Source: Oscillospiraceae bacterium (GTDB lineage Bacteria > Bacillota > Clostridia > Oscillospirales > Oscillospiraceae). From it: a stretch of DNA of 40,025 nt. Under the pieces are notes generated by a model, which saw only the letters and a list, made by a program, of their open reading frames with translations, was not told the origin of the DNA and searched no databases. The stretch is taken from assembly GCA_016282135.1 (NCBI GenBank), contig JAEEKA010000102.1, positions 1-40,025 of the forward strand, written 5' to 3'. Below, piece by piece: positions 3,991 to 35,053 of this stretch. Position 1 is the first letter of the stretch, and the number at the start of each line of letters is the position of its first letter. A program made the position numbers and the translations under genes.

Positions 3991-5079
3991 ATGGAAAAAG
4001 AAAGAATTTGCTTATCGAACAAAAGCGTGTTTGTCACCGGCGCAGCCGGATTTATCGGGGCTTGTGTCGTGCAACAATTGCTGCTGCTCGACGGTCAAAT
4101 CACGATCGTCGGCATAGACAACATGAACGACTATTACGATCCGTCGCTGAAGGAGTACCGCCTTGCGAAACTGAACGAGCGCGCAAAGAACAGCAGGAGT
4201 AAGTTTGTGTTTTACAAGGGCAGCATTGCGGACAAAGGGCTGATCGACAAGTTATTCGCGGAATACAAGTTCGATATTGTCGTGAATCTCGCGGCGCAGG
4301 CGGGTGTGCGGTATTCCATTGATCATCCGGATGTGTACATCGAATCGAACATCATCGGTTTTTATAACATCCTGGAAGCCTGCCGGCATTCCTGCGACCA
4401 CGGCGCGAAGGGCGTGGAGCATTTGGTGTACGCCTCCTCCTCCTCAGTTTACGGCGGCAACAAAAAGGTTCCCTTCAGCACCGAGGATCCCGTGGACAAC
4501 CCGGTGTCTCTCTATGCCGCGACCAAGAAGTCGAACGAGCTGCTGGCCCACGCGTACAGCAAGCTTTACAACATCCCATCCACCGGCCTGCGCTTTTTCA
4601 CGGTCTACGGTCCCGCCGGACGTCCCGATATGTTCTATTTTTCGGCGACGCAGAAGCTGCTGCGCGGCGAGACGATCAGAATTTTCAACTACGGCGACTG
4701 CAAGCGCGATTTTACCTATGTGGACGATATTGTCGAGGGCGTAATCCGCGTGATGCAGGGCGCGCCCAAGCGTGCCACAGGGGAAGACGGCCTGCCCATC
4801 CCACCCTACGCGATCTACAACATCGGCGGCGGACAGCCGGAAAACCTGCTGGATTTTATCAACGTCCTGCAGGAGGAACTGGTTCGCGCCCAGGTGCTTC
4901 CCGCCGATTTTGATTTTGACGCCCACAAAGAGCTCGCGCCGATGCAGCCGGGCGACGTGCCGGTCACTTACGCCGACGCGACCGCGCTGGAGCGCGATTT
5001 TGGCTTTACGCCGAAAATCGGGATCAGAGAGGGCTTGCGAAAATTCGCCGAATGGTATAAAGACTATTACAAAGTGTGA
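3991..5079 (+). CDS. NAD-dependent epimerase, UDP-glucuronate 4-epimerase (CapI/LpsL) type
   Basis: A 362-residue extended [11 protein letters not shown] near residue 16 binds NAD, and YAATKKSNE supplies the catalytic Tyr and Lys. [36 protein letters not shown] and [17 protein letters not shown] are hallmark segments of the CapI/LpsL group, which converts UDP-glucuronate to UDP-galacturonate. The gene starts 6 bp after fnlB, with GGGAGAAAG upstream as ribosome site. The following gene is UDP-glucose dehydrogenase, which makes its substrate, so the pair should deliver UDP-GlcA and UDP-GalA for an acidic polysaccharide. A UDP-glucose 4-epimerase role is less likely because of the [16 protein letters not shown] context and the neighbour. 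Confidence 0.88.
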
Positions 5080-7692: not shown

Positions 7693-10600
7693 ATGAGCAA
7701 GAAAGCAAAGTTTTTCGCCGTTTCCAACGCGCACCTCGATACCCAGTGGAACTGGACGATTGTGGACACCATCCGGGACTGCATCAAAAACACCATGGAC
7801 TACAACTTCCCGCTGTTCCGGAAATACCCCTTCTACGAGTTCAACTTTGAGGGCGCTTTCCGCTACAAGCTGATGCAGGAATACTATCCTGCAAAATACA
7901 AGCAGGTCAAGAAATACGTCAAAGAGGGCAGATGGCACCCGGTGGGCGCCGCCTGGGACGCCATGGACGTGAACGTACCCTCCGGCGAAGCCCTGATGCG
8001 CCAGATTCTGATCGGCAACAACTGGTTTGAACAGGAATTCGGCGTGATTTCCAAGGACATCTTTCTGCCCGACTGCTTCGGCTTTCGGGCGTCGCTGCCC
8101 TCCATCGAAGCCCACATGGGCCTGATGGGCTTCTCGACCCAGAAGCTGGCCTGGGGGGCAGGAGCGCCGCTGCTTGCCCCCGACGGCAGGGTCCTGCCGC
8201 CTGTGCCGAACAGCGAGCTGCCCCGGCTGGACCTGGGCAGATGGATCGGTCCCGACGGCAAGGGCGTGTTCGTATCGCTGCAGGGCGGCAACTACACCTA
8301 CAATTTTGACAACCACAACGACGAGCGCCCCATCCAGACGCGAAGGGAGATTGCCGAGGCCATCGCCCATAACGAAAAATATTCGGGCGTTGCCAGGCGC
8401 ATGATGTACTACGGCACCGGCGACTACGGCGGCGCGCCCTCCGACGGCTCTGCCCGTCTCTTGCAGGCGGCGGCAGACAGCGCTGGGGATTTCGACGTGA
8501 TCGCGGCCACGCCCACCGACGTGTACGAAGGGCTGACGGAGGAGGAGATCGCGGGACTGCCTGTGTATCAGGGGGCTCTGCTCATTCCCCACGGCTATGG
8601 GGCCATGACCAGCCATACCGCGATGAAGCGTCTCAACCGGAGAAACGAGCGTCTGGCGGACCGCACCGAGCGGGCGGCCAGCGCGGCCAAGTACCTGGCG
8701 GGGGAAGCCTATCCCAAGAAACGGCTGAATGAGGGCTGGAAGACCTTCCTGTGGCACCAGTTCCACGACGATCTCACCGGCACCTCCATCGCCTCCGCCT
8801 ACCGCTATTCCCACAACGATGAGCTGCTGGCCGCCAACATCTTCGCGGGCGAGCTGCAAAACGCCCTTTCCGTCGTGGAGCGAAAGCTGGACACCCGGGG
8901 CAAGGGACAGCCCTACGTGGTTTACAATCCCTCTGCCTTCTCCCGCTGCGAAACGGTCCGGCTGCCCTACGACGGCAAGAACGGCTGCGTGTATCTGGAG
9001 GGCAAGCGGCTGCCTACGGCAGGGGAGAAGGGCTGCGTTATCTTCCGGACGCCACTGGCTCCGGCCTCCTTCACAGTGGTCCACGTCCGCGAAGAACGGC
9101 ACAGAGCGGCGTCCTCCCTGAAGGTCGGCTCCAGCATTCTGGAGAATGACTTTCTGCGAGTGCGGGTCAGCCGTTCGGGGGAAGTCCGCTCCATCTTCGA
9201 CAAGAAGCTGAACCGTGAGCTGCTCAGCGCGCCGATTGCGTTTGAAATCTATCCTGACACCAGCACGGTCTGGCCCGCATGGGAATACAACTTCGAGGAT
9301 CTGAAGAAACGGCCCAAGCAGCTTCCGAGGGAGGCCGAGATCGAAGTGATTGATCGGCGGCCGGTGTACGTGGCCCTGAAAATCACCAAAAAGTATCAGG
9401 AAAGCGTGTTTGAAACCACCGTGACCCTGGCTGAGGGTGCTTCCGCCCTGCGATTTGACAACCGGGTGCGCTGGTACGAGCGGGCGTCCAACCTCTTTGT
9501 GCGCTTCCCGCTGACAGCGGCCAGCGACACGGCCGTCTTTGACGCCGATCCCGGGGCGGTCAAGGGCGGAATCACGGATTCCTACCCCTACTTCATGCAC
9601 AACGTCCATGAGTGGGCGGACCAGCAGGACGAGAGCGGAAGCTTCGGCGTGCTGATTGCCAATGACTGCAAATACGGAATGACCAAACAGGACAGAAACA
9701 CCCTGTCCCTGGCCCTGATCCACACCCCGAAGGGCTCCTATCAGCCGGCGTCCGGCCAGGACTTCCAGGACTTCGGCCTCAACCTCTTCTCCTATACGAT
9801 CCAAGGCTACGGCACGGACCGGGGGGAGGCCCTGCGGGGCGCGGAAGCCCTCAATCTGCCGGTTTCCTGCGTCAAGGCCGAGACCCACAAGGGCGCCCGC
9901 AAAAGCCTGTCCTTCCTGGAACTGGAAGGGAGCGGCGCTCAGCTTACCGCCTGCAAGGAGGAAGAAAAGGGTTCTCTGCTCATCCTGCGGGTCAAGGAGA
10001 CAGAAGGAAAAGCCCAGCGGGGCTTGCGTATCAAGCTGCCGCTGAACCGGGTGAAGAAGGTCTACGCGTGCGACGGTTATGAGCGGATCAGCCGGGAAAT
10101 GCAGTGGGACGAAACCGGATTCCGCTTTGATCTCGACGCCTTTGCCGTGGCGTCCTTCGCGCTGGAAGTGGAAAAGACGCTCTGCCGCGGCACCCGAGAC
10201 ATCAGGATTCCTCTTCCTGTCAACGAAAAGATATTCACCCGGCGCGGCGAAAAGCTGGCCGCCGCCCGCTGCGCCCTGCCGGCGGAGCTCTTTGCGGAAA
10301 CGGTCAGCGCCAACGGCGTCAGCTACCGGCTGAGCCGGGGCGAGAAGGACGTGCTGAAGGCCGCCGGACAGCGGATTACTCTGCCGGAGCCCAGGAAATA
10401 TCTGCGCATCCTGGCCGCCGCCCGCAGTGATCGCAAGCCCTTCTCCTTCCTCGTGGGAAAGAACACCGTCACGTTCCCGGTGGCGCCCCTCAACTGCCCG
10501 GTGGGCAGCATCGAGTCTTCGGTTGCCGGCACAGCCAACGCCGTGACGAAGGATGCCGTGGCGGTATGCTATACCCACACCCACGACGAAAATGGTGGGG

Positions 10601-11406
10601 ACAGGCTGTACGATTTTGCGTACCTCTTTGAATATGAAATCCCCCTGGAGGGGGAAACGGAGCTCACCCTGCCGGACGACGGCGAGCTGCTCCTCTTCGC
10701 GGCCACAGCTACCGACAAGGCCCGCAGGCCGATGAGCGGTGAGGTCTATGACGACTACGGCGAGGATGACCAGCGTAGCCTGCACCGGCTGACGGTTGTG
10801 GGCTGCGACGGCAGCGGCGTCTATCCCGAAGGAGCCCTGGTGCGCATTTTCGCCCCCACCCTGACCGACGACGCCCTCTTCATGGGATTTGAAAAGAGCG
10901 ACGACATCGTTTCAATAGAAGAAAACCTTGCCGTCGTCCGGGTCGGCCAAAAGAACCTCACCGTGAAGGCACGATACAAGAAGCTGGGCAAGGACCTGGC
11001 CAGAGGCAAACGCTGCCGCGCCAACCACGAGATGAGCCGCCAGGAGAGCGCGGAACACGCCCTGGACGGCAACAGCGACACCAAATGGTGCGGCACCAGA
11101 GACGAAAACGGCGTCTGCACGCTGGTGGTAGACCTGGGCAGGCCAGAGGAAATCTCCTCCTATCTGATCGTTCACGCCGGATCGAGAGAATCGAGACTCT
11201 GGAACACCGTGGACTTTGAGATCCTGACGAAGGTACGGGAGGCGGAGAAATGGTCTCCGGCGGACAGCGTTTCCGACAATCGGGAAAACCTCACCAACCG
11301 TTCCTTCCCCCCGCGCAGGGCCCGCTACGTGATGCTTCGCATCACTCAGCCCTGCCGGGACGGAGACAGCCACGCCAGAATCTACGGGTTTGAAGTCTTC
11401 CGCTGA
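7693..11406 (+). CDS. GH38 alpha-mannosidase with C-terminal discoidin-like domain
   Basis: A 1237-residue retaining glycoside hydrolase acting on alpha-mannosides. Zinc-site residues H14 and D16 lie in NAHLDTQWNW, the predicted nucleophile D127 in FLPDCFGF, and a further zinc histidine (H358) in HQFHDDLTGTS. These are the standard GH38 landmarks. Middle and beta-sandwich domains follow. The last 140 or so residues (RANHEMSRQESAEHALDGNS and TKWCG onward) look like an F5/8 type C (discoidin) carbohydrate-binding fold. There is no signal peptide, so the enzyme should be cytosolic. An upstream in-frame start at 7600 reads through apparently non-coding sequence. ATG 7693 begins exactly at the conserved N-terminus. 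The family norm is about 850-1050 residues, so the C-terminal extension is real added length. Confidence 0.92.
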   Translation: MSKKAKFFAVSNAHLDTQWNWTIVDTIRDCIKNTMDYNFPLFRKYPFYEFNFEGAFRYKLMQEYYPAKYKQVKKYVKEGRWHPVGAAWDAMDVNVPSGEALMRQILIGNNWFEQEFGVISKDIFLPDCFGFRASLPSIEAHMGLMGFSTQKLAWGAGAPLLAPDGRVLPPVPNSELPRLDLGRWIGPDGKGVFVSLQGGNYTYNFDNHNDERPIQTRREIAEAIAHNEKYSGVARRMMYYGTGDYGGAPSDGSARLLQAAADSAGDFDVIAATPTDVYEGLTEEEIAGLPVYQGALLIPHGYGAMTSHTAMKRLNRRNERLADRTERAASAAKYLAGEAYPKKRLNEGWKTFLWHQFHDDLTGTSIASAYRYSHNDELLAANIFAGELQNALSVVERKLDTRGKGQPYVVYNPSAFSRCETVRLPYDGKNGCVYLEGKRLPTAGEKGCVIFRTPLAPASFTVVHVREERHRAASSLKVGSSILENDFLRVRVSRSGEVRSIFDKKLNRELLSAPIAFEIYPDTSTVWPAWEYNFEDLKKRPKQLPREAEIEVIDRRPVYVALKITKKYQESVFETTVTLAEGASALRFDNRVRWYERASNLFVRFPLTAASDTAVFDADPGAVKGGITDSYPYFMHNVHEWADQQDESGSFGVLIANDCKYGMTKQDRNTLSLALIHTPKGSYQPASGQDFQDFGLNLFSYTIQGYGTDRGEALRGAEALNLPVSCVKAETHKGARKSLSFLELEGSGAQLTACKEEEKGSLLILRVKETEGKAQRGLRIKLPLNRVKKVYACDGYERISREMQWDETGFRFDLDAFAVASFALEVEKTLCRGTRDIRIPLPVNEKIFTRRGEKLAAARCALPAELFAETVSANGVSYRLSRGEKDVLKAAGQRITLPEPRKYLRILAAARSDRKPFSFLVGKNTVTFPVAPLNCPVGSIESSVAGTANAVTKDAVAVCYTHTHDENGGDRLYDFAYLFEYEIPLEGETELTLPDDGELLLFAATATDKARRPMSGEVYDDYGEDDQRSLHRLTVVGCDGSGVYPEGALVRIFAPTLTDDALFMGFEKSDDIVSIEENLAVVRVGQKNLTVKARYKKLGKDLARGKRCRANHEMSRQESAEHALDGNSDTKWCGTRDENGVCTLVVDLGRPEEISSYLIVHAGSRESRLWNTVDFEILTKVREAEKWSPADSVSDNRENLTNRSFPPRRARYVMLRITQPCRDGDSHARIYGFEVFR

Positions 11407-23914: not shown

Positions 23915-23981
23915 CCTTTAGCGCGGGCCTTAACTGCGCGTCGCTGCCCGCCATGCGTGAAATATGAAAAGGAGATTTGAA

Positions 23982-26009
23982 ATGAAAAGACTGTCTGTTT
24001 TCGTTTTGGCCCTTCTGCTGTTGACCGGCTGCGCCAATCCGGCGCCGGGCGGAACGACCGGAGCGCCGGAGACCACCGGCGCCGGGAAGATCGCCGCCTC
24101 CGTGGCGGCGGTGGAAAATCCGCCCGTGATCGAGAAAAGGGACCTGGCCCCAAAGGAGGCCCTGACGGGCTGCCCCCTCTACGTCAACGCTGTGGAGGGA
24201 CTGCCGGAGGACTTCATCTTCGGCATGGACGCCTCCCAGGTTCCTGCCCTGGAACGGAGCGGGGTGAAATACTACGACCGGGACGGCGCGGAGCGGGACG
24301 TCTTTGAGATTCTGGCTGCCAATGGGGTCAATTACATCCGGGTCCGGGTCTGGAACGACCCCTTTGACGCCCAAGGCCGCGGCTACGGCGGCGGCAACTG
24401 CAACGTGGACACCGCCTTGGAGATCGGCAAGCGGGCCACCGCCTGCGGCATGAGACTGCTGGTGGATTTCCACTACTCCGACTTCTGGGCCGACCCCGGC
24501 AAGCAGATGGTTCCCAAGGCCTGGAAGGATTACGACCTGGCGACCAAGGCGGCGGCCCTGGAGGCCTACACCCACGACGTGCTGATGACCCTGCGGAATG
24601 GGGGCGTGGACGTGGGCATGGTCCAGGTGGGCAACGAGACCAACGGCGCCCTCTGCGGGGAGAAGGACTGGTCCGACATTGTAAAGCTGATGGCGGCGGG
24701 CTCCCGGGCCGTCCGGGACGTCTTCCCCCAGGCCAAGGTGGCGGTCCACTTTGCCAATCCCGAGCGGGGCGACTATCTCAACTACGCCTCCACGCTGAAG
24801 ATCTTCGAGCTGGACTACGACGTCTTCGGCTCCTCCTATTACCCCTACTGGCACGGGAGCCTGGACAACCTGACCCAGACTTTGGAGAAGATTCGCAAGA
24901 GCTACGGCAAGGACGTGATGGTGCTGGAGACCTCCTACGCCTGGACGGCGGAGGACTTTGACTTCTCCGGCAACACCATTTCCGAGTCCAGCGAGAAGCC
25001 CTATCCCTATACCCAGCAGGGGCAGGTGAACAGCCTTCGGGACGTGACCCAGGCGGTGCAGAAGGCCGGCGGCATCGGCGTGTGCTATTGGGAGGGAGCC
25101 TGGATCGGCGTGGGCGGCGTGTCCAAGGAGGAAAATCAGAAGCTTTGGGAGCAGTACGGCTCCGGCTGGGCCTCCTCTTACGCGGCGGAATACGATCCCG
25201 AGGACGCGGGCAAGTGGTACGGCGGCTGCGCCGTGGAGAACCAGAGTTTCTTCGATCCCCAGGGCAGGGTTCTGGACAGCCTCATGGCCTTCAACCTGAT
25301 CCGTTATGGAAACGGAGAGGTTCCGCTCAAAATCGAGGCGGTGGAGGACGCGGAGCTGCGGGCGAAGGCAGGGGAAGACCTTGTTCTGCCCGAGACCGTA
25401 AACGTGGTTATGACGGACAACAGCCGACAGGCGGCGCCCGTGCACTGGAATGCGGACCCGGTGGAGCTCAAGCTGCTGACGCCAGGGACCTATGAGATCA
25501 ACGGCGTGACCGACGCCGGCCTGCCCGCCAAGCTGACGCTGATCCTGGAAGGGGAGAACCTCCTGCTTAATCCGTCCCTTGAGACCGGTGTTGACGATCC
25601 CTGGGTCGCGGAAAACGTCGGCGGCTGCCAGCAGCTGAACATCGAGGAAAAGACCGGGGACTCCAGAACCGGCGACTGGCATTACCATTTCTGGTCTCCC
25701 GATGCCGACAAGGCGGAGTTTACCCTGGAGCAAAGCCCCGCGGGACTGGAAACCGGGGTCTACGATTTCAGCATCTGGATCATGGGCGGCGACTGCGGCG
25801 AGGCCGAGGTCTACGCCTACGCGAAGCTTGACGGCGAGATTGTCGCCACGGCCCCCATGGAGATCACGTCCTGGAACGAGTGGCACGAAGGCGCCGTGAC
25901 CGGCATCGAATACACTGAGGGCCAGACCCTGACCGTGGGCATCTACGTGAAGGCTCCCGCCGCGGGAGCATGGGGCAAGATCGACGACGCCAGACTTTCC
26001 AGGCAGTAA
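23982..26009 (+). CDS. Secreted lipoprotein endo-beta-1,4-galactanase (GH53) with CBM61-like module
   Basis: A 675-residue arabinogalactan endo-beta-1,4-galactanase cutting galactan side chains of pectin outside the cell. A signal peptide ends in LLLTG with lipobox C17, then a low-complexity linker. The GH53 barrel spans about 75-435, with acid/base E219 in VGNETNGA and nucleophile E316 in VLETSYAW. An Ig/Big_4-like domain (about 440-525) is followed by a C-terminal module (from LLNPSLETG, about 527-675) resembling CBM61, a beta-1,4-galactan binder. The ATG at 23982 follows AAAAGGAG; an upstream in-frame ATG at 23964 contains that ribosome site. It opens the glycan-use cluster, ahead of the ABC importer. 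Confidence 0.93.
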   Translation: MKRLSVFVLALLLLTGCANPAPGGTTGAPETTGAGKIAASVAAVENPPVIEKRDLAPKEALTGCPLYVNAVEGLPEDFIFGMDASQVPALERSGVKYYDRDGAERDVFEILAANGVNYIRVRVWNDPFDAQGRGYGGGNCNVDTALEIGKRATACGMRLLVDFHYSDFWADPGKQMVPKAWKDYDLATKAAALEAYTHDVLMTLRNGGVDVGMVQVGNETNGALCGEKDWSDIVKLMAAGSRAVRDVFPQAKVAVHFANPERGDYLNYASTLKIFELDYDVFGSSYYPYWHGSLDNLTQTLEKIRKSYGKDVMVLETSYAWTAEDFDFSGNTISESSEKPYPYTQQGQVNSLRDVTQAVQKAGGIGVCYWEGAWIGVGGVSKEENQKLWEQYGSGWASSYAAEYDPEDAGKWYGGCAVENQSFFDPQGRVLDSLMAFNLIRYGNGEVPLKIEAVEDAELRAKAGEDLVLPETVNVVMTDNSRQAAPVHWNADPVELKLLTPGTYEINGVTDAGLPAKLTLILEGENLLLNPSLETGVDDPWVAENVGGCQQLNIEEKTGDSRTGDWHYHFWSPDADKAEFTLEQSPAGLETGVYDFSIWIMGGDCGEAEVYAYAKLDGEIVATAPMEITSWNEWHEGAVTGIEYTEGQTLTVGIYVKAPAAGAWGKIDDARLSRQ

Positions 26010-26106: not shown

Positions 26107-26135
26107 TAGACATTCCGAAAGGAAAGTAGTATAAT
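26107..26135 (+). promoter_or_regulatory. Sigma-A promoter of the ABC importer operon
   Basis: TAGACA (26107-26112), spacer of 17, perfect TATAAT (26130-26135). The leader to the start codon is about 75 bases and contains a 7-bp stem (26144-26150 with 26162-26168). Confidence 0.85.
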
Positions 26136-26215: not shown

Positions 26216-27817
26216 ATGAATTTTAAGAGAATCGCAGCAATGCTGCTGGCGGTTGTGATGGTTTTCGCCCTTGTTGCCTGCAACGACACCACCGACGAGA
26301 CCAAAACCCCCACCGGCGGCAACGACACCACCCCCGCCACCCAGGGCAACCAGGGCGGCAGCGAACTGGCCGGCACCTACGAGATCAAGGTCTGGTGTGC
26401 CGAGAAGATGGTGGACCTGACCACCAACCAGATCAAGGCTTTCAATGAGAAGAACACCGACGGCATCGTCATCAAGGCTACCGTGCAGAACGTGAGCGAG
26501 GGCGAGGCCGCTACCCAGATGATCACCGACGTGGACGCCGGCGGCGATCTGTTCTGCTTCGCTGATGACCAGTTCGCCCGCCTTGTCCAGGCTGGCGCTC
26601 TGTCCAAGCTGGGCACTCAGGCCTCCGAGTTCGTCACCAAGAACAATGATGCCGGCGCCGTCAAGGCTGCCACCATCAACGGTGAGATCTATGCCTACCC
26701 CATGACCGCGGACAACACCTACTTCATGTACTACGACAAGACCGTCATCACCGACCCCACCAGCATGGACAAGATCATCGCTGACTGTGAGGCCGCTGAC
26801 AAGCAGCTCTGCTTTGACGTGGGCAACGGCTGGTATCTGGCCTCCTACTTCTTCGGCGCCGGCTGCTCCTCTGACTGGTCCACCGACAAGGACGGCCACT
26901 GGGTCGTCAACGACACCTTCAACAGCGACGAAGGCCTCATTGCCATGAAGGGCATGAACAAGCTGATGTCCTCCCCCAAGTTTGACTCCAAGAGCAACGC
27001 CGCCGAGTTCGACAACGGCGCTGCCGTGGTCGTCAGCGGCACCTGGGATTCTTCTACTGCCAAGTCCATCCTGGGCGACAAGATGGGCGTCGCCGCCCTG
27101 CCCAAGTACACCGTGGACGGCAAGGATTATGAGCTGGGCTCTTTCATGGGCTACAAGCTGGTGGGCGTCAAGCCCCAGAGCGACGCTGTCAAGGCTGCCG
27201 TTCTGCACAAGCTGGCCCAGTACCTCACCGACAAGGACGCTCAGATCGAGCGCTTCAACACCGCCGGTTGGGGCCCCTCCAACCTGGAGGCCATGAAGTC
27301 TGACGCCGTTCAGAACGATCCCGTTCTGGCCGCTGTTGCTGCCCAGGCCCAGAGAGCCGTTGTGCAGAACGTGCCCGACGGCTGGTGGAACCTGGCTGCT
27401 GCCCTGTCCGCCACCGCCAAGGAGACCGGCGACGAGGCTGCTCTGAAGGAAGCCCTGAAGACCTACAACGACGGCGTGGAGCTGCTGAAGAACCTGAAGC
27501 CCGGCCTGCTGTTCGTGGGCGCCTGGAATGGCTGGAACAACGCTGTTGTGGAGGACACCTATATCCTCTCCGGCGACGGCGACGTCCTGTCCCTGACCCT
27601 GGATGTTCCCGAGAGCGATTATATGGGCGGCCGTATCGTCAACAACGGCAAGTGGGAGTCTGACAAGGGCTACGCCCAGGTTACCACCGGCAAGGAGCTG
27701 GCCAAGGACCTCGGCGGCGACAACCCCGACAACAACATTGTCTTCGTTGAGCCCGGCACCTACAAGATCACCATCAACACCGCCAACAACGAGATCACCC
27801 TCGAGAAGGTCGGCTGA
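26216..27817 (+). CDS. ABC sugar importer solute-binding lipoprotein with extra C-terminal sandwich domain
   Basis: A 533-residue extracellular binding protein of the maltodextrin/galacto-oligosaccharide (MalE/GanS) type. The signal peptide ends in ALVA with lipobox C22, followed by a Thr/Gly-rich linker. The binding-protein fold covers about 55-425 (for example EIKVWCAEKMVDLTTNQIKA, YAYPMTADNTYFMYYD). From about residue 430 a further domain begins, with VGAWNGWN (W437, W440) and ending GTYKITINTANNEITLEKV. That pattern is reminiscent of SusE/SusF-like or starch-binding beta-sandwiches and is not usual in binding proteins. AAGGAGG gives the start at 26216. Context (two GH53 genes, amylase nearby) leaves galacto-oligosaccharide or maltodextrin as ligand; the former is favoured by the operon. 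Confidence 0.88.
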   Translation: MNFKRIAAMLLAVVMVFALVACNDTTDETKTPTGGNDTTPATQGNQGGSELAGTYEIKVWCAEKMVDLTTNQIKAFNEKNTDGIVIKATVQNVSEGEAATQMITDVDAGGDLFCFADDQFARLVQAGALSKLGTQASEFVTKNNDAGAVKAATINGEIYAYPMTADNTYFMYYDKTVITDPTSMDKIIADCEAADKQLCFDVGNGWYLASYFFGAGCSSDWSTDKDGHWVVNDTFNSDEGLIAMKGMNKLMSSPKFDSKSNAAEFDNGAAVVVSGTWDSSTAKSILGDKMGVAALPKYTVDGKDYELGSFMGYKLVGVKPQSDAVKAAVLHKLAQYLTDKDAQIERFNTAGWGPSNLEAMKSDAVQNDPVLAAVAAQAQRAVVQNVPDGWWNLAAALSATAKETGDEAALKEALKTYNDGVELLKNLKPGLLFVGAWNGWNNAVVEDTYILSGDGDVLSLTLDVPESDYMGGRIVNNGKWESDKGYAQVTTGKELAKDLGGDNPDNNIVFVEPGTYKITINTANNEITLEKVG

Positions 27818-27880: not shown

Positions 27881-27921
27881 TTTGGTTGGAGTCAAGCGAG
27901 CTTGGCTCCAACCAAATTTTA
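27881..27921 (+). terminator. Attenuating terminator between binding protein and permeases
   Basis: A 16-bp stem with one T-G pair (27881-27896 with 27901-27916, loop CGAG) is followed by TTTTATA. Such a partial terminator would let the binding protein be made in excess over the membrane genes downstream. Confidence 0.82.
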
Positions 27922-27938: not shown

Positions 27939-29480
27939 ATGAAAAGATACACGGATATGGAGTATCTGCGCCTGTCAAAGGGGCGGAAATTCCTGTACAA
28001 AATCGCGGCTTTTTTCTGTGCGATCCCGCGCGGGCTGAAAAACTTCTTCCTCGGCATCGTCCGGGCCGTGGTGAATTTCTTCAAGTCGATCGGCCGGGAA
28101 TTTGCCGATATTTTCACTACCTTCGTCAAGGGCGATTGGAAAACCAAGCTGTCCTATTTTGTGATGGGCTTCGGCAACATCGCCCGGGGCCAGATCCTCC
28201 GGGGTCTGCTGTTTTTGCTCTTTGAGGCGGTTTTCATCGTCTACATGATCGTGGCGGGAGCCAAATGGCTGAGCATGCTGCCCTCTCTCGGCAAGGTCGG
28301 CCCCCATGAGGTCTACAACCCGGTCCTCGATCAATATACCACAGAGTACGGCGACAACTCCTTCAAGATCCTGCTCTACGGCGTTCTGACCATCTTCTTT
28401 ATCATCGCTTTCATTTACACCTGGCGGGTAAACATCAGGCAGAACAAGCTCTCCGAGCAGATCATCAAGTCCGGCAAGCCGCTGAAGAGCGGCAGGGACG
28501 ACCTCCGCTCCCTGGTGGACGACAACTTCCACAGAACCCTGCTCGCCCTCCCTCTGACGGGCATCCTGATCTTTACGGTCATGCCCATCATCTTTATGAT
28601 CCTGGTGGCCTTCACCAATTACAGCGGCATCAACGACGGCTACGCCAACAACCTCTTTACCTGGGTGGGCCTGGACAACTTCAACACCCTTCTGGCCTGG
28701 GAGGGCGCGGGCAACGTCTATTCCGCCACCTTCGGCGAGATTCTGTCCTGGACCCTGATCTGGGCCTTCTTCGCCACCTTTACCAACTATTTCCTCGGCA
28801 TGTTCGTCGCCATGATGATCAACAAGAAGGGAATCCGGCTGAAAAAGCTCTGGCGTACCATTCTGGTGCTCACCATCGCGATCCCACAGTTTATCTCCCT
28901 GCTGTACGTTTCCAAGATGTTCGACAAAAACGGCATCATCAACGGCTTGCTCTCTGACCTGGGCATTATCAGCCAGAACATCGACTTCTGGGGCAGCACG
29001 GCCCACAATGCCCTCCTTCCCAGGGTCATGGTCATTGTCATCAACATCTGGATCGGCATTCCCTATCTGATGCTGATTGCCACCGGCATTCTGATGAATA
29101 TTCCCGCCGATCTCTACGAATCCGCGAAGATCGACGGCGCCGGCGGCTGGAAGCAGTTCTCCAAAATCACCCTGCCCTATATGTTGTTCATTACCGGCCC
29201 CTATCTGCTCACCAGCTTTACCGGCAACATGAACAACTTTAACGTCATATACCTGCTCACCGGCGGAAAACCCATCAACGCGGCGGCTTCCTCGGCTGCC
29301 GGCTCCGCGGGCTACACAGACCTGTTGATTACCTGGCTCTTCAAGATCACCACCGGCGAGGGCGCCAAGTACTACATGGCCTCGGTTATCGGCATCCTGG
29401 TCTTTGTCGTGGTGGCAGTGATTTCCCTGGTGGTCTACAACCTGCTGCCCTCCATTAAGAACGAGGAGGATTTCCAGTGA
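27939..29480 (+). CDS. ABC sugar importer permease, MalF/GanP type
   Basis: A 513-residue integral membrane permease. The N-terminus is unusual: about 85 residues of basic, amphipathic sequence before two hydrophobic helices (about 88-108 and 143-161), a soluble loop, and then the canonical six-helix MalF core from about residue 200. The EAA loop for ATPase contact is LYESAKIDGAGGWKQFSKI (about 391-409). Bacillus GanP is about 420 residues, so this protein carries a longer N-terminal tail. The chosen ATG at 27939 directly precedes MKRYTDMEYLRLSKG and follows an AAAAAGGGG stretch. Stop and next start overlap as TGATG. Confidence 0.9.
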   Translation: MKRYTDMEYLRLSKGRKFLYKIAAFFCAIPRGLKNFFLGIVRAVVNFFKSIGREFADIFTTFVKGDWKTKLSYFVMGFGNIARGQILRGLLFLLFEAVFIVYMIVAGAKWLSMLPSLGKVGPHEVYNPVLDQYTTEYGDNSFKILLYGVLTIFFIIAFIYTWRVNIRQNKLSEQIIKSGKPLKSGRDDLRSLVDDNFHRTLLALPLTGILIFTVMPIIFMILVAFTNYSGINDGYANNLFTWVGLDNFNTLLAWEGAGNVYSATFGEILSWTLIWAFFATFTNYFLGMFVAMMINKKGIRLKKLWRTILVLTIAIPQFISLLYVSKMFDKNGIINGLLSDLGIISQNIDFWGSTAHNALLPRVMVIVINIWIGIPYLMLIATGILMNIPADLYESAKIDGAGGWKQFSKITLPYMLFITGPYLLTSFTGNMNNFNVIYLLTGGKPINAAASSAAGSAGYTDLLITWLFKITTGEGAKYYMASVIGILVFVVVAVISLVVYNLLPSIKNEEDFQ

Positions 29481-30388
29481 TGAGTAAACAACGTGAAGAA
29501 GCTCAGGCTGTCATGAAGCGGCACATGGGCCTGAAAGCATCCGCCAGAATCAGCAACACGGTGATCCATATCGTCCTGGTGCTGATGGCCATTATCTGGC
29601 TGGTTCCATTTGTCTGCATCGTTCTGCAATCCTTCCGCACGGAGACGAACCCTGACGGCACCAGGGTTACTTGGATGGTCCCTTATATTGTCCCGAAGAA
29701 GTGGGGCCTGGACAACTACGTTAACCTGTTCAAATCCGACTTCAAGGACTGGTATCTGAACACCTTTATCATTGCCCTGGTGGTGGCGGCGGTCCAGACC
29801 TTCATCGTCCTGTGCATGTCCTACACTCTCTCCCGCTTTCGCTTCAAGCTCCGCAAGGGCCTGATGCAGTTCATGCTGATCCTCGGCATGTTCCCCGGTA
29901 TGCTCACCATGATTATCCTCTACCGGGTGTTGAAGGACCTGGGGCTCACCGAAGCCCACGCCGTGCCCGGCCTGATATTGGTCTACGTGGCATCCTCCGG
30001 CATGGGCTACTACGTCTCCAAGGGCTTCTTTGACACCATCCCCAAAACTCTGGACGAAGCCGCCCGGGTGGACGGCGCTTCCCGGGCTCAGGTCCTGTTC
30101 AAGATCATCCTGCCGCTGGCCAAGCCCATTGTGATCTATACCGTCCTCACCGCTTTCATGGCCCCCTGGGGCGACTTCGTCTTTGCCCGGTACATCGCCT
30201 TCGGCGATTCCAGCGGCATGAATGCGGCAGTGGGCCTGTGGAAATGGCTGACCCAGGATATGATCAACCTGAGGTACACCATGTTCTGCGCGGGCGGCGT
30301 TGTCGTCGCCATCCCCGTGGCGGTCCTGTTCATGTGCCTGCAAAAGTACTACGTGGAAGGTGTCACCGGCGGCGCCGTCAAGGGCTGA
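29480..30388 (+). CDS. ABC sugar importer permease, MalG/GanQ type
   Basis: A 302-residue permease with about six membrane helices and the EAA loop LDEAARVDGASRAQVLFKII (about residues 191-210). It pairs with the MalF-type protein to form the channel. ATG at 29480 overlaps the upstream stop, with GAGGAGGA (29463-29470) as ribosome site. A GTG 3 bp earlier is in frame but less well placed. A short N-terminal cytosolic tail of about 27 residues precedes the first helix. Family length is about 280 residues, so it is typical. Confidence 0.93.
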   Translation: MSKQREEAQAVMKRHMGLKASARISNTVIHIVLVLMAIIWLVPFVCIVLQSFRTETNPDGTRVTWMVPYIVPKKWGLDNYVNLFKSDFKDWYLNTFIIALVVAAVQTFIVLCMSYTLSRFRFKLRKGLMQFMLILGMFPGMLTMIILYRVLKDLGLTEAHAVPGLILVYVASSGMGYYVSKGFFDTIPKTLDEAARVDGASRAQVLFKIILPLAKPIVIYTVLTAFMAPWGDFVFARYIAFGDSSGMNAAVGLWKWLTQDMINLRYTMFCAGGVVVAIPVAVLFMCLQKYYVEGVTGGAVKG

Positions 30389-30421: not shown

Positions 30422-31597
30422 ATGGCAAGTGTAAAGCTGACGAAAGTTAAGAAAATTTACGATAACAAGGTTGTGGCGGTCCACGACTTTGACCTGGATA
30501 TCCAGGATAAGGAATTCGTGGTCTTCGTCGGTCCCTCCGGCTGCGGCAAATCCACCACCCTGCGCATGATCGCCGGCCTGGAGGAAATCAGCGAGGGCAC
30601 CGTGGAGATAGACGGTGTGGTGGTCAACGACCTCCAGCCCAAGGACCGGGACATCGCCATGGTCTTCCAGAACTACGCCCTTTATCCCCACATGACGGTG
30701 TATGACAACATCGCCTTTTCTCTCCGGCTGCGGAAAATGCCGGAGGATCTGATCTACGAGAAGGTCACCAACGCCGCCGAGATCCTGGGCATCACCGAGT
30801 ATCTCATGCGCAAGCCCCGGGCCCTGTCCGGCGGCCAGCGCCAGCGTGTGGCCATCGGCCGCGCCATGGTGCGGGAGTCCAAGGTCTTCCTGATGGACGA
30901 GCCCCTGTCCAACCTGGACGCCAAGCTCCGCAACCAGATGCGCGCCGAGATCATCCTGCTCCGGCAGAAGATGGACACCACCTTCATCTACGTCACCCAC
31001 GACCAGACCGAGGCTATGACCCTGGCCGACCGGATCGTCATTATGAAGGACGGCTACATCATGCAGGTGGGCACCCCCGCGGAGTGCTTCGACATGCCCG
31101 CCAACCTCTTTGTGGCGGAGTTCATCGGCGCCCCGAAGATGAACATTATCAAGACGGAATTGCTCAAAGAAAACGGAAAATATTATGTAACCCCCTTTGA
31201 CACGAAGATCGAGGTTACCGGCGAGAAGGGCGCGGAGCTGGCCCGCAGAGGCGTGGAGTCCGGCCCGGTTCTCCTGGGCGTCCGGCCCGAGCACATTACC
31301 CTGTGCAGGGAAGGGGAGGGGATCCCCACCATCCTGGAGGTCAACGAAATGATGGGCTCCGAGCTCCATCTGCACGTTTACGTCCAGCCAAAGGAGGAAG
31401 GGGAGGAAGACCAGGGCGAGGCGAAAGAACCCGCTCCCGTGGATCCCGCGTCCTGCCTGATTGTCCGCGTTCCCACCATCGGCCTCACTGCCGACCAGCG
31501 GAAGAACATGGCCTACGGCGCGCCGCTGAACATCACCTTCGAAGGAAAGGTCATGCACTTCTTCGACCCCGAAACGGAGAAGAATCTGCTGCTGTAA
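30422..31597 (+). CDS. Sugar ABC importer ATPase, MsmK/MsmX/UgpC type
   Basis: A 391-residue ATPase energising the importer. Walker A GPSGCGKST (37-45), signature LSGGQ (135-139), Walker B VFLMDE (155-160) and THDQTEAMTLADR (H-loop region) are intact. The C-terminal regulatory OB/TOBE region contains an acidic, low-complexity insert (EEGEEDQGEAKEP, about 324-336) not typical for MsmK. In Bacillus the equivalent ATPase MsmX is encoded elsewhere and shared between importers. Here it is in the operon, suggesting a dedicated subunit. Start ATG follows AAAGGAGAATCGAAT. Confidence 0.95.
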   Translation: MASVKLTKVKKIYDNKVVAVHDFDLDIQDKEFVVFVGPSGCGKSTTLRMIAGLEEISEGTVEIDGVVVNDLQPKDRDIAMVFQNYALYPHMTVYDNIAFSLRLRKMPEDLIYEKVTNAAEILGITEYLMRKPRALSGGQRQRVAIGRAMVRESKVFLMDEPLSNLDAKLRNQMRAEIILLRQKMDTTFIYVTHDQTEAMTLADRIVIMKDGYIMQVGTPAECFDMPANLFVAEFIGAPKMNIIKTELLKENGKYYVTPFDTKIEVTGEKGAELARRGVESGPVLLGVRPEHITLCREGEGIPTILEVNEMMGSELHLHVYVQPKEEGEEDQGEAKEPAPVDPASCLIVRVPTIGLTADQRKNMAYGAPLNITFEGKVMHFFDPETEKNLLL

Positions 31598-31722: not shown

Positions 31723-31740
31723 TTAGAAATGGAGAATACT

Positions 31741-33585
31741 ATGCCTGACAAATTCATCGTCAACATCATCCACCGTCCCGAGATGGTGCCGGAATATGCC
31801 GAAAAGGTTACCGGCCAGGGGAAGGAGGAAGATCTGGGCCGGAAGGCGCTGCTGACCGAGAGCTTGGACATTTTCAAGACCCAGCAGATGCTGGCCCACA
31901 AGTACGGCCTGAAAACCACCATCCAGATGACCTACGCAGCCCTCTTCAACCCCGAGGCCGTGGAGCTGGCAAAGCAGCACCACGCGGAGTTCGGGGACGA
32001 AATCGGCCTGTCCCTGCTGGGCCTGCCCTGCGAGCAGTTCCGGGAGAAGTACAAAACCAAGGACTTCTGCATTTGGATGTTCTCGATGGAGGACAAGAAA
32101 TCCATCGTCCGGGACGTCTTTGAGAAGTTTTATGACGCCTTTGGTTTCTACCCGGAATCCACCGGCTCCTACTATATGGACGCCGAGCTGATCAACTTCA
32201 TCAAGGCGGAGTACCCCACCGTCAAGTGCGCCGTGGCCACCTGCTGGGAGGAGGGCCCCAAGGCCTACCACACCTGCAACAACTCCTGGTACACCTTTAT
32301 GGACGGCGGCCCCTGGGCCCCCTGGATTCCCTCGAAGGTCAACACCCACGCCCCCGCCGCCAATGAGAGCGAGGACAGCGGCATCGTGGCCATCCCCCAC
32401 CTGAGCCGGGATCTGCTGGCCTGCTATGACGGAAACGGCTCCAACTTCGGTACCCACCCCCAGAATGTCCTGCGTGGCATGATCTACGACACCAAAACCT
32501 GGGAATATCCCTACCTCTACAATCTCATCGACCAGTACCGGAGCCTTGCCAAGTACAACGACGGCTACGCCTACAATATGATGTTCGTGGGTCCCGGCTG
32601 GATGAACAAGATGGGCCGCTGGGAACAGCCCTACGAGCTGCTGTACAAATCCTATGAGGACGGCTGCGCCTACTACGGCAAGCTGAAGCAGGAGGGCAAG
32701 CTGGTTGATATGACCATGGCCGAGTTTGCGGACTACTACCGGGAAAAGAAGACCTATACGACCCCGGAATGCGCCCTTTGGCGGGACATTCTCTACGGCT
32801 CCGACAAGCAGCTCTTCTGGTACTGCGACCCCTATATGCGGGCCTGCGTCAATATGGACCAGGGCGGCGCCATCGTGGACCTGCGGCCCTACGCCGCCAA
32901 GCTGGAGTGGCCCGTGGGCATCGGCACGGCCCACGTCCAGGACGCCTCCTATCCCTATCTGATTCAGGAAAAGTACCGGGCGGGCTACTTCACCCACTAC
33001 GCGGGAGAGGGCACCGTTCGCTCCGCCAAGGTCTGCTGGAACGGGGAGGAGGTGGATCTCTGCCTCTGCCGCACCAAGGCAAAGTTCTCGAAGGAAGGGG
33101 AGGATCGGATCCTGACCCTGGACCCGGTGGACATCGAGTTTGCGGGGGGGCTTACGGTAAAGCTGCAGACGGTGATCACCTTCTCCGAGGGCAGCTCCAA
33201 TATCCGCATGGACCGGAAGCTCCTGGGGCTCTCCGACCCGGAGGCCCAGGTGACGGTGAAGGAATACATGACAGCCTGCTACGGCACTACGGAATACGCC
33301 CAGGATATGACGAGCCTGACCCTGCGGATCGAGGCGGGGGAGGAGTCCGTCGCCATCCCCTACGAATACAAGTGCCGGGAGGCCGCCGTTCCCGGGGCGG
33401 AGGAAGTCAGCTGCACTATCCCGCCCATCAAGACCCGGGTTTCCATGCTGGCCAACGGCCGGAATAAGATCGGCTTTGTCCGGGAGGGCTATGCCTTCAG
33501 CCCCATGTTTACCCTGGGCTGGGAGCGCACTATGAAAGAACAGGAGGTTTTCACCACATGGCTCAATCTGGAAAGGGCAGACTGA
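31741..33585 (+). CDS. Unrecognised 614-residue protein, possible new carbohydrate-active enzyme
   Basis: I do not recognise a named family. The N-terminal half (about 1-330) reads like an irregular alpha/beta barrel. Segments such as HAEFGDEIGLSLLGLP, AFGFYPESTGSYYMDAEL and VKCAVATCWEEG recall NodB-polysaccharide-deacetylase or GH38/GH57-type folds, in which an early Asp/Glu and histidines are catalytic. The C-terminal third is beta-rich (VDIEFAGGLTVKLQTVITF). There is no signal peptide, so it is cytosolic. GGAG at 31731-31734 points to ATG 31741, not the ATG at 31729 that contains it. In the Bacillus galactan operon this place is taken by the GH42 beta-galactosidase GanA, so this protein may finish oligosaccharide hydrolysis. 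That is inference from position. Confidence 0.6.
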   Translation: MPDKFIVNIIHRPEMVPEYAEKVTGQGKEEDLGRKALLTESLDIFKTQQMLAHKYGLKTTIQMTYAALFNPEAVELAKQHHAEFGDEIGLSLLGLPCEQFREKYKTKDFCIWMFSMEDKKSIVRDVFEKFYDAFGFYPESTGSYYMDAELINFIKAEYPTVKCAVATCWEEGPKAYHTCNNSWYTFMDGGPWAPWIPSKVNTHAPAANESEDSGIVAIPHLSRDLLACYDGNGSNFGTHPQNVLRGMIYDTKTWEYPYLYNLIDQYRSLAKYNDGYAYNMMFVGPGWMNKMGRWEQPYELLYKSYEDGCAYYGKLKQEGKLVDMTMAEFADYYREKKTYTTPECALWRDILYGSDKQLFWYCDPYMRACVNMDQGGAIVDLRPYAAKLEWPVGIGTAHVQDASYPYLIQEKYRAGYFTHYAGEGTVRSAKVCWNGEEVDLCLCRTKAKFSKEGEDRILTLDPVDIEFAGGLTVKLQTVITFSEGSSNIRMDRKLLGLSDPEAQVTVKEYMTACYGTTEYAQDMTSLTLRIEAGEESVAIPYEYKCREAAVPGAEEVSCTIPPIKTRVSMLANGRNKIGFVREGYAFSPMFTLGWERTMKEQEVFTTWLNLERAD

Positions 33586-33770
33586 ATTACCGCTGCCCGT
33601 CCTGCTTCATGCGGGACATCGACATGGATATGTTCTACGACAAGGAAAAGGACGAGTTCTACTGCCTGCGCTGCCAGTATCGGGGCAATGAGGCGGACGT
33701 CCTGGCCAAGAACGAGCTGGCCCGCTTCCGCTACGGCGCCATGCGTCAGCGCTTCAGCTTTGAGGATTGA
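33558..33770 (+). CDS. Small zinc-ribbon protein overlapping the unknown enzyme gene
   Basis: A 70-residue protein with two CxxC knuckles (C13/C16 in YRCPSC and C36/C39 in YCLRCQYRG), a zinc ribbon similar to those in primase-type CHC2 or rubredoxin-like fingers. It starts 28 bp inside the previous gene in another frame, with AGGAGG (33542-33547) upstream, and ends 3 bp before the second GH53. Codon use looks like the neighbours. No DNA-binding helix is evident. A role as metal chaperone or partner of the unknown enzyme is possible but is not supported by motif evidence. Confidence 0.7.
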   Translation: MAQSGKGRLNYRCPSCFMRDIDMDMFYDKEKDEFYCLRCQYRGNEADVLAKNELARFRYGAMRQRFSFED

Positions 33771-33773
33771 GAA

Positions 33774-34943
33774 ATGATAAATCAGATCAAAGGCGCTGAT
33801 ATCTCTTCATTATTGGATGTGGAGGAGCACGGGGGAAAGTTCTGTGACCGGTCACCGGTCACCAGGCAACACGCACCGGTCTGTCATTCTGAGCGAAGCG
33901 AAGAATCCGTTTCCTCTGCTGCCGAAGACGCTCTCGTAATCCTGCAGCGCCACGGCGTCAACCTCATTCGTCTCCGGCTCTGGAACGACCCCTACGACGA
34001 AAACGGCTGCCCCTACGGCGCGGGAACCAACGATCTGCCCCGGACCATGGAGTTGGCCCGCCGGTGCAAGGCCCTGGGCTTGCCCTGGCTGCTGGACTTC
34101 CACTATTCCGACTTCTGGGCGGACCCCGGCAAGCAGTATCCCCCAAAGGCCTGGGCGTCTCTGGACGCGGACGGCCTGGAGCGGGCGGTCTATGAATTCA
34201 CAAAGCAGACGATGGAGACGCTGCGGGACGCGGAGCTGCTGCCTGCCATGGCCGCCCCGGGGAATGAGCTCTCCAACGGCCTGCTCTGGCCCCTGGGTCA
34301 GGTCCCCAACTGGGGAAATATCGCCCGCTTTGTCTCTGCAGGCATTCGGGCCATCCGGGAGATTGCCCCGGAAACCAAGGTGATGATCCACCTGGACAAC
34401 GGCGGCAACAACGACCTGTATCGAAGCTGGTTTGACCACTGGATAGAACACGGCGGCGCGGACTTTGACTGCATCGGCCTGAGCTATTATCCCTTCTGGC
34501 ACGGCTCTCTGGACGCCCTGCAGCGAAATCTTCACGACCTGGCCGCACGTTACGGGAAACCAATGATCGTGGCGGAGACCTCCATGGCCTTCACCCTGGA
34601 GGAGTGCCGGGATCGGGAGGGCCTGACTGCTGAGCAGAAGCGGGGCCTGGCCGCCAACGAAAAGACCGCCGCCGCGGTGCCCTACCCCCCCACGCCGAAG
34701 GGCCAGGCGGAGTTCCTGCGGGACCTCTGGGCGGTGATTCGTTCCGTCCCCGGCGGCCTTGGCCGGGGCCTCATCTGGTGGGAGCCTGGCTGGCTGCCGG
34801 TTCCCGGGGCGGAGTGGACCAAGCCGGCGGGACTGGCCTATATCCACGAAAAAGGCCCCGGCGGCAACGAATGGGCCAACCAGGGCTTGTTTGACTATGA
34901 CGGAAACGCACTTCCGGCGCTGGAAGAGCTTCAGCGTCTGTAG
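33774..34943 (+). CDS. Cytosolic GH53 endo-beta-1,4-galactanase with in-frame repeat insertion
   Basis: A 389-residue GH53 enzyme with no signal peptide. The domain begins at once (KGADISSL). Acid/base E165 is in PGNELSNG and nucleophile E268 in VAETSMAFT; HYSDFWADPGKQ is conserved. After GGKF (residue 23), normal GH53 proteins, including the paralogue at 23982, need about 8 residues before the helix (D)ALxIL; here there are about 28. The extra part is encoded by a period-7 array and a GTCATTCTGAGCG-type repeat, in frame. The last codons and the TAG stop lie in a GTAG hairpin repeat. The gene is thus invaded at both ends yet remains open. It probably degrades imported galacto-oligosaccharides if the insertion loop is tolerated. 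Confidence 0.88.
   Translation: MINQIKGADISSLLDVEEHGGKFCDRSPVTRQHAPVCHSERSEESVSSAAEDALVILQRHGVNLIRLRLWNDPYDENGCPYGAGTNDLPRTMELARRCKALGLPWLLDFHYSDFWADPGKQYPPKAWASLDADGLERAVYEFTKQTMETLRDAELLPAMAAPGNELSNGLLWPLGQVPNWGNIARFVSAGIRAIREIAPETKVMIHLDNGGNNDLYRSWFDHWIEHGGADFDCIGLSYYPFWHGSLDALQRNLHDLAARYGKPMIVAETSMAFTLEECRDREGLTAEQKRGLAANEKTAAAVPYPPTPKGQAEFLRDLWAVIRSVPGGLGRGLIWWEPGWLPVPGAEWTKPAGLAYIHEKGPGGNEWANQGLFDYDGNALPALEELQRL
33843..33877. repeat. Period-7 array inside the GH53 coding region
   Basis: Five 7-bp steps: TGTGACC, GGTCACC, GGTCACC, AGGCAAC, ACGCACC, translated in frame as part of the insertion. Confidence 0.75.
33883..33908 (+). repeat. GTCATTCTGAGCG-type interspersed repeat inside GH53
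   Basis: Begins GTCATTCTGAGCG and ends GAAGAATCC. An inverted copy with one mismatch in 26 lies at 35028-35053. This sequence type is widespread in intergenic DNA of other bacteria; here it is read as HSERSEES within the GH53 protein. Confidence 0.88.
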
Positions 34944-35027: not shown

Positions 35028-35053
35028 GGATTCTTCGCTCCGCTCAGAATGAC
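35028..35053 (-). repeat. GTCATTCTGAGCG-type repeat, inverted copy
   Basis: The reverse complement of the element at 33883, 25 of 26 bases identical (A to G inside the CGAAG/CGGAG part). It sits in a mosaic with hairpin repeats on both sides. Confidence 0.88.

Follow-up and report, generated by a model that had tools for sequence, protein, structure and literature searches.

The contig analysed here (the window, 40,025 nucleotides, positions 1 to 40,025 of JAEEKA010000102.1 from an Oscillospiraceae genome) raises the question of what an unrecognised protein does at the heart of a galactan-use operon. In the ganSPQAB operon of Bacillus, the permease genes are followed by ganA, which encodes a GH42 enzyme, and then by ganB, which encodes a GH53 enzyme. 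In the window, the operon position of GanA is taken by a gene for a 614-residue protein, here termed UNK, followed by a small zinc-ribbon protein (the ribbon) and a GH53 enzyme. An earlier note, made from the sequence alone, had read the gene order as GH53 lipoprotein, binding protein, two permeases, ATPase, unknown protein, zinc ribbon and GH53, and this order matches the Pfam and open reading frame lists:

23964..26009, + strand: GH53 protein with a Big_4 domain (Pfam) and a lipoprotein-like N-terminus (by eye)
26216..27817, + strand: sugar-binding lipoprotein, SBP_bac_8 (Pfam; lipoprotein by eye)
27939..29480, + strand: ABC permease 1, BPD_transp_1 (Pfam)
29477..30388, + strand: ABC permease 2, BPD_transp_1 (Pfam)
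30422..31597, + strand: MalK-like ABC ATPase (Pfam)
31741..33585, + strand: UNK, 614-residue predicted cytosolic protein with a NodB/GH57-like barrel and a beta-rich C-terminus (open reading frame, alignment, models)
33542..33548, + strand: AGGAGGT, putative ribosome-binding sequence of the ribbon, within UNK codons (read from the sequence)
33558..33770, + strand: 70-residue zinc ribbon, CPxC...CxxC, overlapping UNK by 28 nt (open reading frame list, survey of loci)
33774..34943, + strand: GH53 endo-beta-1,4-galactanase (Pfam) without a signal-peptide-like N-terminus (by eye), containing a short repeat element

The first of the two GH53 proteins is presumably a surface galactanase. UNK has no signal peptide by eye, and an alternative in-frame ATG at 31729 would add four residues to it. 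Between the binding-protein gene and those of the permeases is a terminator-like hairpin of 16 pairs (27881-27916); ahead of the former gene lies a promoter-like site (26107-26135). The short repeat CATTCTGAGCGAAGCGAAGAATC occurs in two copies (33885-33907 and 35029-35051, with 0 and 1 mismatch, whereas 100 shuffles gave no copy), the former inside the downstream GH53 gene, where a stretch of about 22 residues seems, by eye, to be missing from the compared GH53 N-termini. Elsewhere in the window (7693-11403) there is a gene for a 1237-residue GH38 alpha-mannosidase with an F5/8 type C domain.

UNK does belong outside the families searched, as the earlier note had supposed: it has zero matches in Pfam at E<=1 and in NCBIfam at E<=10, and its single match among PDB sequences is a ribosomal protein at E 1, which is not meaningful. 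Its own family is large. In the species-genome collection we confirmed at least 592 stretches with relatives, the best 80 of which are 76-98% identical to UNK, and a 98%-identical copy is present in a buffalo-rumen Oscillospiraceae genome. A single full-length copy is present in the host genome (2.5 Mb, 85.56% complete); a second match there, at E 0.05, was taken as chance. Within the order, a close copy is found in 3 of 295 genomes (the host included) and a relative with 24-31% identity in 14 more, and in a sample of the phylum the host is the one positive among 398 genomes. In one family sample, UNK is carried by 31 of 250 genomes (best match 74-83% identical in 30 and 39% in one); genome G689, with a weak match at E 1e-10, was counted with the 219 negatives. 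Two scans of viral contigs yielded no confirmed relative. A weak relative (25%) lies at 4137-4772 of MT837148.1, a record labelled Bacteriophage sp. and devoid of annotation.

The conservation of UNK is that of a protein under strong selection. Across 81 sequences, window copy included, 301 of the 614 residues are invariant, in line with the conserved residues that the earlier note had proposed to look for among homologues; together with the number of relatives, this means that the open reading frame is not a chance one. The first 385 residues are 85-95% identical in 54 sequences. In the 80 loci of the closest relatives, the median identity to the window copy is 81.5 for UNK, 55.2 for GH53, about 45 for the permease and 32.8 for the binding protein. 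Fourfold-degenerate sites were compared between the window gene and 17 orthologues; for six distant orthologues, each with about 80% protein identity, the value expected by chance was also calculated. For L068 the identity at these sites is 0.305 against a chance value of 0.301, and for the other five it exceeds chance by 0.07-0.14 (0.251 vs 0.177 in L073; 0.414 vs 0.272 in L075), most orthologue pairs being not fully saturated. Protein identity of about 80% alongside such values at fourfold sites points to strong constraint on UNK, as opposed to recent spread.

Whether UNK belongs to galactan use can be judged from its neighbours, which we surveyed in two partially overlapping sets (e.g. L073 and L171): the 80 loci of the closest relatives and the 31 loci of the broader family sample. 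Neighbours are genes that tblastn with reference proteins picked up at E 1e-12 in the fetched stretch, with some contigs ending early; one locus without UNK (L177) was excluded from the counts. A GH53 gene is present in 77/80 and 24/31 loci, respectively, and lies within 700 bases of UNK on the same strand in 72/80 and 22/31. At the level of whole genomes, GH53 occurs in 27 of the 31 family-sample genomes with UNK and in 33 of the 219 without it (Fisher p 1e-15), the GH53-positive genomes numbering 60 of 250 at E<=0.001 and 57 above the cut-off. The association with galactan genes for which the earlier note had proposed a neighbourhood survey is hence established, as a genomic link with GH53. 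Galactose genes (GalK, GalE or GalT), present in 8/80 and 6/31 loci, also speak for a role in galactan use. In seven of the 31 loci, GH53 is absent from the fetched stretch; three of these genomes carry it elsewhere and four have none, exceptions that weigh against such a role. Two of these four have a Melibiase-like gene after UNK (in one of them, with a gene for 2208 residues in between), another has GH42 and GH2 nearby, and the 39% relative has a GH29 fucosidase at its locus. Given the presence of other glycosidase genes at these loci, the substrate of UNK may be wider than galactan fragments.

The place of UNK in the operon led the earlier note to see in it a new exo-acting enzyme in the role of GanA. 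Its premise stands within the window, where the 19 proteins scanned (part of them listed at E<=1e-5 only) give no GH42, GH2 or GH35 match, and GH42 was not found in the host genome at its 85.56% completeness. Moreover, 40 of the 80 loci have GH53 without GH42 or GH2 in the fetched stretch. The same genome, however, encodes one LacZ-type GH2 enzyme with a small-chain domain on another contig (C101), and GH42 or GH2 accompanies UNK in 39/80 and 16/31 loci, with a GH2 gene directly ahead of UNK in Roseburia hominis (L073). UNK itself has no match to the GH42 profile PF02449. The positional part of the claim stands, whereas the case for UNK as a stand-in for a beta-galactosidase is weakened by this frequent co-occurrence and by the GH2 enzyme elsewhere in the genome, and we regard a new exo-beta-galactosidase replacing GanA as unlikely.

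Structural models provide a second line of evidence on the nature of UNK. Both are of moderate quality, with a mean pLDDT of 66 and a pTM of 0.67 for the full-length protein and of 68 and 0.78 for residues 1-385. The top PDB match of the latter in Foldseek is 3LM3 (E 3e-11, rmsd 7.7 and a TM of 0.61 on the query), the product of BDI_3119 from Parabacteroides distasonis (DUF3863/DUF3864), labelled as a putative glycoside hydrolase/deacetylase; polysaccharide deacetylases and GH57 enzymes follow. A profile built from 16 family members (A1) also selects 3LM3, as the sole significant PDB chain (E 2.7e-4). The 50 matches listed for the full-length model do not include 3LM3; a deacetylase is matched for the barrel, along with many beta-sandwich proteins (mutarotase-like, YidC and others), the mutarotase-like sandwiches being among the matches of the C-terminal half. 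This model served to assign the fold class and nothing further. Of the NodB/GH38/57-like barrel segments of the earlier description, a NodB/GH57-like barrel is recovered in this way, as is the beta-rich C-terminus, and the assignment of UNK to the NodB/GH57 barrel class is supported by the models. As modelled, the barrel has the same fold as 3LM3, that of the DUF3863 superfamily. At the level of sequence, the DUF3863 profile (PF12979) gives no match for UNK, one among the 16 A1 members (E 0.11) and none above the cut-off in 147 genomes; the GH57 profile PF03065 does not match UNK either, so that the likeness to GH57 is one of fold only. The profile-profile comparison that the earlier note had suggested for GH38 and CE4 returned nothing: with hhalign, run without a positive control on seven control families as well as two sets for GH38 and one for CE4, in two settings each, all probabilities are below 5%, the highest being that of a GH42 control (4.55%), with 0.3-1.3% for GH38 in four runs.

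The polysaccharide deacetylases that come after 3LM3 among the structural matches suggest that UNK might instead be a sugar deacetylase, removing acetyl groups from imported oligosaccharides. CE4/NodB deacetylases bind their metal through an HxxxH motif, and no such motif is seen by eye in UNK; nor does UNK match the CE4/NodB profile PF01522, and its hhalign probability with CE4, again without a positive control, is 2.7-4.2%. This makes a deacetylase improbable. A search for candidate catalytic residues left E87 as the sole invariant carboxylate of a ten-member alignment, in which D147, D224 and D380 come close to invariance. Although it does not vary in A1, E255 was rejected as a catalytic residue, as a 74%-identical orthologue has Q in its place.

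The main find of this analysis is the ribbon, which the earlier note had listed in the gene order only. A protein of 69-79 residues with two CxxC pairs is encoded 3' of UNK in all 113 loci that extend far enough downstream (two more ended too early, and some genomes occur twice, giving 106 distinct 300-nt junctions among the 113). Its start always falls within the 3' end of UNK, with an overlap of 28 nt in 112 loci and of 31 nt in that of the 39% relative (L145), and the AGGAGGT ahead of it is invariant in 13 aligned sequences and present also in L145. We used 112 tails of UNK, 107 of them distinct and 105 of these sufficiently long and with the ATG at its position. Among the 107, the most frequent codon has a share of 0.98 over the 5 overlap codons vs 0.59 over 19 upstream codons. 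At the ribosome site, K is always encoded by AAG and E always by GAG, in the 95 and 106 of 107 tails that have these residues. In the ribbon frame 3' of the overlap, variation is 0.106, 0.080 and 0.391 at codon positions 1, 2 and 3, and so mostly at the third. Judging from the conserved overlap, the ribosome site and this third-position variation, the ribbon is a real gene, and its overlap with UNK is constant. Its product has no known family above the cut-off; a plasmid match at E 2e-3, inside a Haloplanus transposase, was taken as a generic zinc ribbon. No ribbon was found within 900 nt of 12 distant UNK relatives (ten loci), and among the loci surveyed it appears specific to the UNK branch. 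The ribbon protein may bind UNK.

A ribbon partner might also point away from glycosidases. We know of no such partner among them, and GalK, GalE or GalT genes are present in 8/80 and 6/31 loci, both of which would suit a non-hydrolytic enzyme of galacto-oligosaccharide metabolism, such as a phosphorylase, an epimerase or an isomerase. The barrel class to which UNK is assigned, however, is known chiefly for hydrolases, transferases and deacetylases, in keeping with the matches of the 1-385 model, and we deem this reading quite improbable. Zinc ribbons are also common in nucleic-acid-binding proteins and no shared catalytic set was found in the UNK alignments, which counts against an enzyme and would fit a cytosolic sensor or regulator formed by UNK and the ribbon. 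Yet LacI regulators are already present in 36/80 and 15/31 loci, and the 85-95% identity of the N-terminal part would seem to fit a substrate pocket better; a non-enzyme is in our estimate very improbable.

The closest known systems share parts of this arrangement. UNK has 17% identity to a near-identical Parabacteroides version of the 3LM3 gene, which is encoded in a plasmid record (L232, 13812-16935) directly downstream of a UNK relative (23%), the one such relative seen in plasmids. The two genes overlap by 11 nt, and their locus, of the SusC/SusD type, also carries two GH2 genes. In other families of the order, relatives of about 510 residues share motifs with UNK and are 24-31% identical over the matched part but, unlike UNK, show no ribbon within 900 nt. 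GH53 was not recognised at nine of their loci in the order (L104-L112), and two of these (L104, 6557-9706; L105, 5742-8889) carry tandem pairs. GH57 enzymes and the NodB/CE4 deacetylases have the barrel class in common with UNK, which differs from them in lacking any sequence family match and in the negative CE4 profile comparison.

The arabinogalactan gpPUL of Roseburia hominis and R. faecis (PMC5320581) is the same kind of locus, with GH53, and its figure draws hypothetical genes in white; we infer that UNK is one of these, and the gpPUL passages of that article do not discuss it. Growth on type 1 arabinogalactan was reported there for R. faecis only, one of ten strains, though R. hominis A2-183 also has the predicted locus (PMC5320581). 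Were the latter's locus to carry UNK, its non-growth would count against reading UNK as a galactan enzyme. Titles and abstract openings in the literature searched gave no description of UNK or of its pairing with the ribbon.

Weighing these lines of evidence, we favour, at roughly even odds (about 0.5), the reading of UNK and the ribbon as a putative two-protein cytosolic carbohydrate-active enzyme for imported galacto-oligosaccharides. GH53 enzymes are established as acting on beta-1,4-galactan. The surface GH53 would cut this polymer, the ABC transporter would import the resulting oligosaccharides, and the cytosolic GH53, together with GH42 or GH2 in many species, would shorten them. UNK, with its predicted NodB/GH57-type barrel, would be the catalytic part, working with the zinc ribbon encoded by the overlapping gene, and galacto-oligosaccharides would be its substrate. 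The pair would add a further step beyond the known enzymes, most likely by cleaving a particular end, linkage or decoration. UNK is probably a sugar-cleaving enzyme, and an exo-acting galacto-oligosaccharide hydrolase is a possible form of it. More tentatively, and with somewhat less confidence than in the preferred reading, the pair may represent a new type of carbohydrate enzyme, in which a protein of NodB/GH57 fold needs a dedicated ribbon, carrying out a step that is conserved and central to the way gut Clostridia use galactan. The family of UNK is widespread, as seen in 31 of the 250 genomes of one family sample, and better conserved than its recognised operon neighbours (GH53, permease and binding protein), but none of the named families searched here includes it. 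If UNK is an enzyme, a zinc-ribbon partner would to our knowledge be new for this fold, and a step would be missing from the present picture of how gut Firmicutes use galactan and galacto-oligosaccharides.
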